Assembly (NCBI GenBank): GCA_021323335.1
Contig: JAJTCN010000001.1
Location: 1 to 64,000 of the forward strand
Origin: Ramlibacter sp.
GTDB lineage: Bacteria > Pseudomonadota > Gammaproteobacteria > Burkholderiales > Burkholderiaceae_C
DNA: 64,000 bases
Reading direction: 5' to 3'
Part shown: piece after piece, positions 26,560 through 29,809 of the stretch
Layout of the letters: each line of letters opens with the position of its first letter
Numbering within the stretch: position 1 is the first letter of the stretch
Notes under the pieces: model-generated
The model's database searches: none
Told to the model about the DNA's origin: nothing
The model's input: the letters and a program-made list of their open reading frames with translations, nothing else
Translations under genes and position numbers: made by a program

Positions 26560-26655
26560 CGTCATTCCCGCGGAGGCGGGAATCCAGGGCTTCCAGAAAA
26601 AAAGCGGCCCGCGGGCCGCTTTCTCTGGATCCCCGCCTGCGCGGGGATGACATCG
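26560..26655. repeat. Palindromic intergenic repeat, family A, copy 2, with a nested hairpin
   Basis: The outer arms CGTCATTCCCGCGGAGGCGG and CCGCCTGCGCGGGGATGAC match the copy at 19824-19895. Between them lies a second, unrelated stem, AAAGCGGCCCGC with GCGGGCCGCTTT (26602-26625), flanked by an A-run before and a T-rich tail after it. That inner hairpin would work as an intrinsic terminator in either direction. The element separates ctpA from hesA/moeB. Confidence 0.82.
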
Positions 26656-28278: not shown

Positions 28279-29022
28279 TCAGGCCTTGCCCTGGCCGGCC
28301 ACGGCCGCGGCAGCCCGGGCCGCCGCTTCGGCGTCCCCCAGATAGTAGTGGCGCAGGGGCTTCAGTTGCGCGTCCAGTTCGTAAACCAGCGGGATCCCGT
28401 TGGGGATGTTCAGGCCGACGATATCCTGGTCCGAGATGCCGTCGAGGTACTTCACCAGGGCCCGGATGGAGTTGCCGTGGGCCGAGACCAGCACCCGCTT
28501 GCCGGCCCGGATGGCAGGCGCCATCGCCTCGTTCCAGAACGGCAGCACGCGGTCCACGGTGTCCTTGAGGCATTCGGTCAGCGGCACCTGGCCCGGCTGC
28601 AGCCTGGCATAGCGGACGTCGCCGCGCTCGCTGCGCGGGTCGGACGGCTCCAGCGCCGGCGGCGGCGTGTCGTAGCTGCGGCGCCAGATGAGCACTTGGT
28701 CGTCGCCGAACTTCCTGGCGGTTTCGGCCTTGTTCAAGCCCTGCAGGGCGCCATAGTGGCGCTCGTTCAGGCGCCAGGAGTGCACCACCGGCAGCCAGGT
28801 GCGGTCCATCTCGTCGAGCACGTGCCACAGCGTGCGCGTGGCGCGCTTGAGCACGCTGGTGTAGCAGAGGTCGAAGTCGTAGCCCTCGGCCTTGAGCAGC
28901 CGTCCGGCCATCACCGCCTGTTCCAGGCCCAGCGGGGTCAGGTCCACGTCGGTCCAGCCGGTGAAGCGGTTTTCCAGGTTCCAGGTCGATTCGCCGTGGC
29001 GGATCAGGACGAGCTTGTGCAT
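28279..29022 (-). CDS. gpmA: 2,3-bisphosphoglycerate-dependent phosphoglycerate mutase
   Basis: A 247-residue glycolytic mutase interconverting 3- and 2-phosphoglycerate. The phospho-His is His9 in [18 protein letters not shown], and the second catalytic site is in [36 protein letters not shown] and the RSYDTPPP loop are further family marks. The ATG at 29022 is used; an in-frame TTG nine bases upstream is less likely. It heads the minus-strand group gpmA-ctpA-hesA and is divergent from the rhodanese gene, with a 367-base gap filled with hairpins. The C-terminus ends in an Ala-rich tail. Confidence 0.96.
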
Positions 29023-29061
29023 GGTCGGCAAAGGGCAGGGGAATGAAGGGGAGGACCCGGC

Positions 29062-29067
29062 ATTCTA
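29062..29067 (-). promoter_or_regulatory. Candidate -10 box for gpmA
   Basis: On the minus strand this reads TAGAAT in the context TCTAGAATGCCGGG, about 40 bases before the gpmA ATG. The same TCTAGAAT octamer occurs on the plus strand before the rhodanese gene (29339-29346). The -35 region would lie inside the first hairpin of the array. Confidence 0.45.
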
Positions 29068-29073
29068 GAAAGT

Positions 29074-29106
29074 CTCCGAAAAATCGCTGGGGCGATTTGT
29101 TCGGAG
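29074..29106. repeat. Hairpin 1 of the gpmA-rhodanese array
   Basis: CTCCGA and TCGGAG at the ends with AAATCGC and GCGATTT inside form an almost perfect stem of about 14 pairs with a short TGG loop. It lies just upstream of the gpmA -10 box. Confidence 0.8.
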
Positions 29107-29117
29107 GGCTGATCAGT

Positions 29118-29151
29118 GCGGGCATGCCCGGCAAAGCCGGATCATGCCCGC
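29118..29151. repeat. Hairpin 2 of the gpmA-rhodanese array
   Basis: GCGGGCAT at the left pairs with ATGCCCGC at the right, with an inner CCGGC / GCCGG stem and an AAA loop. It abuts the nested palindrome that follows. Confidence 0.8.
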
Positions 29152-29258
29152 AAGGGAGACTGCGCTGCATGTTATTCCGCGCAGTCCCGAGGCGGGCAGC
29201 TTCGAGCTGCCCGCCGTGCGAGAACCGCGCGGAATAACATGCAGCGCGGTTCCCCTTG
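29151..29258. repeat. Nested REPIN-like palindrome (108 bases) in the gpmA-rhodanese array
   Basis: The two arms (29151-29191 and 29215-29258) are reverse complements over nearly their whole length, around a central stem GCGGGCAGC / GCTGCCCGC. Each arm also folds on itself: GACTGCGC with GCGCAGTC on the left, GAACCGCGC with GCGCGGTTC on the right. Their loops are complementary and contain TGCATGTTATTCC or its reverse complement. The stems differ between the arms yet each still pairs internally, which looks like compensatory change. Two inverted hairpin units around a spacer is the REPIN layout. Confidence 0.82.
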
Positions 29259-29259
29259 T

Positions 29260-29289
29260 GAGAAGGATCCGGCTTCGCCGGGCCTTCTC
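29260..29289. repeat. Hairpin 4 of the gpmA-rhodanese array
   Basis: GAGAAGG at the left pairs with CCTTCTC at the right, with an inner CCGGC / GCCGG stem and a TTC loop. It starts two bases after the nested palindrome. Confidence 0.78.
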
Positions 29290-29306
29290 ACACATGCAGA
29301 ACCAAC

Positions 29307-29333
29307 CACCAAAGCCGCTCAGCGGCTTTGGTG
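29307..29333. repeat. Hairpin 5 of the gpmA-rhodanese array
   Basis: CACCAAAGCCGCT and AGCGGCTTTGGTG form a perfect 13-base inverted repeat around a single C. It lies immediately upstream of the candidate -10 box at 29341, about where a -35 box would be expected. Confidence 0.82.
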
Positions 29334-29340
29334 AGAGCTC

Positions 29341-29346
29341 TAGAAT
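29341..29346 (+). promoter_or_regulatory. Candidate -10 box for the rhodanese-grxC unit
   Basis: TAGAAT on the plus strand in the context TCTAGAATCGCGGG, 43 bases before the rhodanese ATG. It mirrors the gpmA box on the other strand. A -35 at normal spacing would fall in hairpin 5, so transcription may depend on DNA structure or an activator. Confidence 0.45.
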
Positions 29347-29389
29347 CGCGGGTTGCCCGGCATCGTCCGGGCCGAGAAGAAAGGTTGGA

Positions 29390-29809
29390 ATGGATCCGTT
29401 GCCGTTTTTGATCAACAACTGGGCGCTGGTGCTCATCGCCCTGGTGTCCGGCACGCTGCTGCTCGCGCCCGGCCTCCTGCAAGGCGTCCGCTCCCGGGGC
29501 CTGTCGCCCGGCGATGCCGTGCAGCTGATCAACCGCGAAAAGGCCGTGGTGGTGGACGTGGGCGAAACCGAGGAGTTCGCGGCCGGGCACATCATGGGTT
29601 CGCGCAACATCCCGGTGGCGAGCTTCGCGCAGCGCCTGCCCGAAGTGGTGAAGAACAAGACCGTGCCGCTCATCCTGGTGTGCGCCAGCGGGGCCCGTGC
29701 CGGGCGCTGCCTGAAGGAGGCGAAAACCCTGGGGTACGAAAAGGCTGTCGTCCTGGGTGGCGGACTTCGGGCATGGAAAGAAGCTAACCTGCCGGTCGAA
29801 AAATCCTGA
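29390..29809 (+). CDS. Membrane-anchored rhodanese-like sulfurtransferase (YibN-type)
   Basis: A 139-residue protein: one N-terminal membrane helix (NNWALVLIALVSGTLLLAP) followed by a rhodanese domain with VVDVGETEEFAAGHIMGSRN and the active-site Cys98 in LVCASGARAGR. Like E. coli YibN, it is encoded just before grxC and secB. It is expected to face the cytoplasm from the inner membrane and carry persulfide sulfur. The ATG at 29390 follows AAGAAAGG; the open frame extends 82 codons upstream, but that part translates the hairpin array and is rejected. Confidence 0.9.
   Translation: MDPLPFLINNWALVLIALVSGTLLLAPGLLQGVRSRGLSPGDAVQLINREKAVVVDVGETEEFAAGHIMGSRNIPVASFAQRLPEVVKNKTVPLILVCASGARAGRCLKEAKTLGYEKAVVLGGGLRAWKEANLPVEKS

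Follow-up and report, generated by a model that had tools for sequence, protein, structure and literature searches.

A hairpin-rich insertion between gpmA and a rhodanese gene of Ramlibacter belongs to a repeat family of the genus and is probably a mobile element

What placed a run of hairpins between the divergent gpmA and rhodanese genes of this Ramlibacter genome, and do the hairpins belong together? The first-pass annotation of the window (the whole 64,000-nt stretch of DNA that was analysed) described five inverted repeats at this position and could match them to no known element. All of these repeats are present in the sequence, but the count of five did not stand, as the segment 29151-29258 comprises three hairpins (29158-29186, 29191-29215 and 29222-29252), the first and last of which join as one long stem in the folds. 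The array is beyond chance, with z about -13 against shuffled sequence for both DNA and RNA. As DNA, 29071-29338 folds to -113.1 kcal/mol against a shuffle mean of -55.69 (sd 4.4; 200 shuffles, none of which equalled it; z -13.05), and the RNA fold gives z -13.80. Tiling the 64 kb into 476 windows of 268 nt placed the lowest value (-178.4) on this segment, which alone gives -182.0; the next tiled window had -169.2 and the median was -125.8. In architecture the segment consists of two copies of a three-hairpin module in mirror arrangement, H3-H2-H1-centre-H1-H2-H3, and the features of the locus are as follows.

28279-29022, minus strand: gpmA-type gene of the histidine-phosphatase family (PF00300), flanking the insertion
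29055-29070, minus strand: left half of the palindrome ACCCG..ATTCTAGAAT..CGGGT of the nearest relatives, with TAGAAT toward gpmA
29064-29070, plus strand: left copy of the target-site duplication, TCTAGAA, 7 bp, single in the empty sites of L049-L053
29071-29338, no strand assigned: inserted element, 268 bp, defined by gap lengths, empty sites and homologous units elsewhere in the genus
29074-29106, minus strand: H3 of the left module, GCGATTTTT on the minus strand (outer arms 29074-29083 and 29097-29106); resembling a terminator by eye, though the scan did not flag it
29109-29116, minus strand: linker CTGATCAG from H3 to H2, recurring in the family
29117-29152, minus strand: H2 of the left module, with a variable outer stem and the almost constant tip CCGGCTTTGCCGG
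29158-29186, minus strand: H1 of the left module, with a variable stem and the tip GGAATAACATGCA
29191-29215, no strand assigned: central hairpin GGCGGGCAGCT/AGCTGCCCGCC, separating the two modules
29222-29252, plus strand: H1 of the right module
29257-29292, plus strand: H2 of the right module
29307-29333, plus strand: H3 of the right module, of differing sequence CACCAAAGCCGC/GCGGCTTTGGTG
29339-29345, plus strand: right copy of the target-site duplication, TCTAGAA, from comparison with the empty sites of L049-L053
29339-29354, plus strand: right half of the palindrome ACCCG..ATTCTAGAAT..CGGGT, with TAGAAT toward the rhodanese gene
29390-29809, plus strand: rhodanese-domain gene (PF00581), flanking the insertion

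The gap between the two genes is 367 bp here. Among named loci, of which the best 80 of 125 were kept, it measures 44-173 bp in all 80, and gpmA adjoins the rhodanese gene in each. The best named matches of the rhodanese come from Ramlibacter. Closest among the named relatives are four Ramlibacter and one Burkholderiales MAG (L049-L053), and in these five the gap is 83-88 bp and holds a single CATTCTAGAAT. The empty site of these relatives reads AACCCG.CATTCTAGAATYGSGGG, and the filled site in the window reads CATTCTAGAA, then 268 bp, then TCTAGAATCGCGGG. Since TCTAGAA is single in the five relatives and occurs in two copies around the insert, it represents a target-site duplication around an insertion. 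Model R1 was applied to 12 of these 80 loci and returned nothing there beyond matches at E 0.05-0.94; for the remaining loci the evidence is gap length. The first-pass annotation had reasoned that a shorter gap in relatives, together with the same hairpins at other loci, would speak for repeat insertion, and this check was positive on both counts. At 29071-29338 a member of a genus-level repeat family, 268 bp long, has inserted into a conserved ATTCTAGAAT core.

A DNA search of the same genome (4.49 Mb, 165 contigs) uncovered further partial copies of the element, and the module order H1-H2-linker-H3 was read from five of these further copies. The 9-bp stem of H1 is variable, and the H1 tip takes one of two related forms, GGAATAACATGCA-like or GGAGCATCGCGCA-like; in H2 the tip CCGGCTTTGCCGG is almost constant and the outer stem varies; H3 is a CACTnnGAAAAGTCGC/GCGACTTTTCnnAGTG-like hairpin. 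The outer ends of the copies are only loosely alike, being H3 hairpins that share a loose CACT..GAAAA consensus. From seven modules we built a covariance model of H1 and H2, which detected seven modules in this genome at E <= 3.9e-13, two of them in the window and five single. The covariance model (E <= 1e-4) also revealed at least one module in 44 of 59 sampled genomes of the genus, with 0 to 40 per genome and copies undetectable in 15. By DNA search at E <= 0.001, 21 of 25 genus genomes matched, copies were undetectable in four, and none of 16 genomes from other families gave a match. Of 120 genomes sampled across the family, those that matched were this genome, one congener and one of 118 genomes of other genera (G145). 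The latter genome, from the same family, contained three modules (L209, L211 and L213), two of them weak, which suggests transfer or an older origin. No match to the element was found in plasmids and phages (distant blastn, E <= 1e-3), and the exact 21-base H1 pattern had no match in viral contigs. The titles and beginnings of abstracts listed by literature searches held no description of such a Ramlibacter repeat, and a term search of Ramlibacter genome papers returned no passage on a repeat family. The earlier idea of a landing site for several REP-type elements came close, in that a repeat family has inserted here, but the insertion is one composite element. Five independent REPs were discarded because the order, the tips and the outer limits recur together as a single unit.

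Both single modules and mirror pairs occur. By hand count, the 125 modules of five genomes formed 17 close pairs, every one of them H1-to-H1, and two genomes were without a pair. When 22 paired copies were aligned, the ten strongest pairwise alignments covered 231-286 nt, and 17 of their 20 ends lay 31-41 nt beyond the H2-to-H2 core, i.e., at the H3 edge; of the weaker alignments, some ended early and some extended up to 68 nt further. The copies closest to that of the window were three loci of one genome (G068; 81-84% over 214-222 nt), and at two of them, L180 and L181, the centre was also closely similar.

A second filled/empty pair was provided by the paired copy L207, which has TTAAGATA flanking both sides, the sequence being single in L220 and L221. 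The duplications with empty sites are thus 7 bp (window) and 8 bp (L207) long. The paired copy L170 and the single module L204 are likewise insertions with respect to relatives' empty sites, and these show no clean duplication. Across 28 paired copies, two of which have a degenerate partner, the longest direct repeat averaged 3.68 nt, compared with 3.47 nt in mismatched flanks. Direct repeats of at least 6 were present in 2 of the 28 (the window and L207, whose repeats were shortened to 6 and 7 by the hairpin edge used in the script). As about 0.8 such cases are expected by chance, only the empty sites make the duplications of the window and L207 convincing. Target duplication therefore holds for these two copies and not for the family. 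In the same genome as the window, the gap orthologous to the L207 insertion (L226, contig C75) contains a different long palindrome with CGCAAAAGTCGC motifs. A further repeat, GACCGCATCCTGAACCGGGGTTCAGGTGGGCGAGG, is common to L007 (about 1637-1671) and L206 (about 1146-1180), where it lies beside the module.

The sequence variation among modules reveals which features of the hairpins are maintained. In 100 distinct modules, related by descent and hence not independent events, 95.9% of the paired cells were paired compared with 82.8% after shuffling and 39-43% when one side was slid, and 19 of 25 stem pairs varied on both sides. The H1 tip pairs 15-21 and 16-20 covary (A-T/G-C and T-A/C-G) and were unbroken in 120 rows; beside them, G12-A24 was found in 97 and A14-G22 in 98 of 100 rows. 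The stems thus change with compensation while the tips are conserved, and the usual mismatch on the H1-to-H3 strand is G-T, not A-C. G-T occupied 66 cells (51 rows) and A-C only 10 (9 rows), again in related rows; pair 51-65 was left out of this count, as 58 of 100 rows had there neither a Watson-Crick pair nor G-T nor A-C, and 32 had G-T. The 37 distinct rows from loci of the DNA search gave 25 G-T against 6 A-C. Equal numbers of G-T and A-C would be expected if both strands mattered alike; therefore, selection appears to be one-stranded, from H1 to H3, and it seems that the structure matters on one strand, read in this direction. The excess of G-T points to one-strand use, which is not what a symmetric cruciform would predict.

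Several known systems resemble the element. Like bacterial MITEs (Correia/NEMIS, ERIC, RUP and QMITE2), it is small, geneless and intergenic, forms stable stem-loops and is present or absent between relatives; a short non-coding insertion with empty orthologous sites was seen for the window, L207, L170 and L204. In two copies here there is also a target duplication of 7-8 bp, the duplication of QMITE2 being 7-9 bp in the excerpted description (PMC10969869). In contrast to the usual MITE, in which the stem is made by the two ends (excerpt of PMC2229807), the Ramlibacter element has several separate hairpins. It also differs in its loose ends, its one-strand covariation and the rarity of clean duplications (2 of 28 paired copies), and no parent IS was found for the family ends with Y1_Tnp as the transposase family sought. 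With REPINs and REP dimers, as outlined in parts of PMC3116915 and PMC3733652, it shares a dispersed, intergenic distribution and a conserved hairpin unit that is paired in inverted orientation across a spacer, and the 17 pairs among 125 modules are indeed inverted pairs of one palindromic unit in a single orientation. Against those outlines, the Ramlibacter module has three hairpins whose stem sequence is not conserved; its target is duplicated in two cases, it shows no link to the Y1 gene and it lacks a constant GTAG/CGTC tag. Where such a tag would stand unpaired beside the hairpin, GTAG or GTGG occurred in some rows only; the two columns preceding the H1 stem vary and the next columns are paired. 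A RAYT gene flanked by the repeat was encountered neither at L129 nor, within 29 kb on the contig of the Y1 gene, in five further genomes. The element thus resembles MITEs and REPINs in its working, lacks the REP tag and the RAYT association, and shows the MITE features in part. Caulobacter CIR elements, as described in a section of PMC2229807, are also intergenic and have two long hairpin arms and a linker; they carry GANTC at the terminal loop, and their mobility mechanism is called unclear. The Ramlibacter tips are instead GGAATAACATGCA-like and CCGGCTTTGCCGG, a distinction drawn from descriptions and not from sequence comparison. The pneumococcal SPRITE (part of PMC10969869) is likewise a repeat with a terminator-like hairpin, whereas in Ramlibacter this hairpin is one of three per module, a separation again made by description.

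Elsewhere in the window, at 26560-26651, CGTCATTCCCGC..GCGGGAATCC and CTGGATCCCCGCC..GGGGATGAC are inverted around the terminator-like hairpin AAAAAGCGGCCCGCGGGCCGCTTT. By eye this looks like a REP pair of the CGTC/dRS3 type (CGTC family: excerpt of PMC3733652).

We consider it very probable that the insertion is a non-autonomous MITE/REPIN-like mobile element of the Ramlibacter repeat family that landed between the gpmA and rhodanese genes. Having no gene of its own, the family would be moved in trans by another enzyme. This enzyme would recognise the one-strand hairpins in single-stranded form, either in ssDNA or in a transcript; HUH/Y1 enzymes act on single-stranded hairpin DNA. H3 would act as a terminator and thereby make insertions tolerable. 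No mobilising enzyme was found with Y1 as the only transposase family sought.

The family could alternatively be a spreading structured RNA gene or a 3'-end/terminator element with a role in termination or RNA stability rather than a mere transposon, which we regard as unlikely. The excess of G-T over A-C and the covarying tips are in line with it, and so are the A and T tracts of H3, which resemble a bidirectional terminator. Moreover, H3 adjoins a neighbouring stop codon in roughly half of the modules: of 92, 53 have a coding-like ORF ending toward H3, and in 49 it ends at most 8 nt away, both counts being without a chance control. The same proximity fits a terminator that would make the insertion of a mobile element tolerable, and target preference could contribute to it. 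For 16 of 91 modules YTAR was found no further than 14 nt from the H3 edge, against none in three control windows, and TGA stops are likewise common beside H3; as stop codons share the position of YTAR at the H3 edge, site specificity and stop adjacency are not separable. The orientation of neighbouring genes, classified for 43 single modules by a rough ORF heuristic, agrees less well with a terminator element. In 26 of them the H1-side gene points away from the element, which often makes the structured strand antisense to that gene, and the H3-side gene is mixed, pointing toward the element in 22 modules and away from it in 17. In addition, no conserved promoter was visible by eye upstream of H1, and the terminator scan flagged a single site in the window, its right H3, on the minus strand, against 0.4 expected from shuffled sequence. 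Rfam 15 gave no match at gathering score for the window and 10 module loci; at E <= 1, 28950-29450 gave 11 matches, all sub-threshold and mostly miRNA-type hairpins and SRP RNA. In the genome with 13 modules that was used for a replication-strand comparison (G007), the 20 windows sampled had only a weak GC skew.

Less probable still is a REPIN in the strict sense, i.e., two inverted REPs mobilised by a resident RAYT (Y1, HUH) transposase. Dispersed hairpin modules in inverted pairs, separated by a short spacer, the one-strand asymmetry and the GTAG or GTGG at the start of some modules are all reminiscent of REPINs, and a Y1_Tnp gene is present in 57 of 59 genus genomes, mostly once per genome. 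However, this gene occurs whatever the module copy number: with one Y1 gene each, G022 has 40 modules and G016 none. The Y1 gene found in the genome of the window (L129) has no module beside it, and the repeat flanking it is, by eye, unrelated. In five further genomes (G004, G022, G046, G068 and G007) no module lay within 29 kb of the Y1 gene on its contig, some of these contigs being short. The GTAG/GTGG start is inconstant and partly within the stem, and target duplications occur in two cases, whereas Y1 chemistry is not known to make any. From position and copy number, the resident Y1 transposase is unlikely to be the mover.

It is also conceivable, at rather long odds, that the element is a bacterial counterpart of a SINE, in which an RNA running from H1 to H3 and ended by the H3 terminator would be copied into DNA by a cellular reverse transcriptase at YTAR-like target sites. 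If true, this would explain the one-strand covariation, the sloppy ends and the inconstant target duplications. Replication template switching at the promoter could create palindromes locally, without a mobile element, and the near-perfect stems of copies differing in sequence might point to it. As the sole origin it is refuted, because other loci and other species carry the same modules in the same order and with the same tips, with homology confined to the unit, and the target is duplicated at the window site; template switching may nevertheless help to keep the stems perfect.

The probable mobile element entered a conserved site. The octamer TCTAGAAT is indeed present on each strand (minus, 29062-29069; plus, 29339-29346), as the first-pass annotation had noted. 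Both copies exist, but their pairing as two matching -10-like boxes arose from the target duplication. Each of the 80 gaps of the named set (L049-L128, the best 80 of 125) keeps the motif ATTYTARAAT, a conservation that lends indirect support to the -10-like character of the octamer, whereas no sigma-70 promoter was found in 28950-29450 by a simple consensus scan; a promoter reading therefore rests on conservation of the -10-like core and not on a full consensus. The core could be a regulator site or an overlapping divergent promoter. As ATTYTARAAT reads TARAAT on either strand, its sequence is probably that of an overlapping pair of -10 boxes. In 16 of the 80 gaps (L049-L128) the motif is bordered by CCCG and GGG arms. 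CTAG is found 12 times in the 64-kb window against about 70 expected, and two of the 12 are at the target-site copies. Since TCTAGAA was duplicated, a TAGAAT box has been retained on the side of each gene, and the sequence upstream of each box is now entirely element. The insertion would in this way supply new upstream promoter sequence to both the gpmA and the rhodanese genes.

These results add a dispersed repeat family that is almost confined to one genus among the genomes sampled, and whose stems covary with a one-strand signature. They also raise a testable question, namely whether the hairpins are read by an enzyme as single-stranded DNA or as RNA. The gpmA-rhodanese locus would be a clear case of a mobile element that splits a conserved, probably divergent promoter core while the target duplication leaves each gene with a -10-like box of its own.
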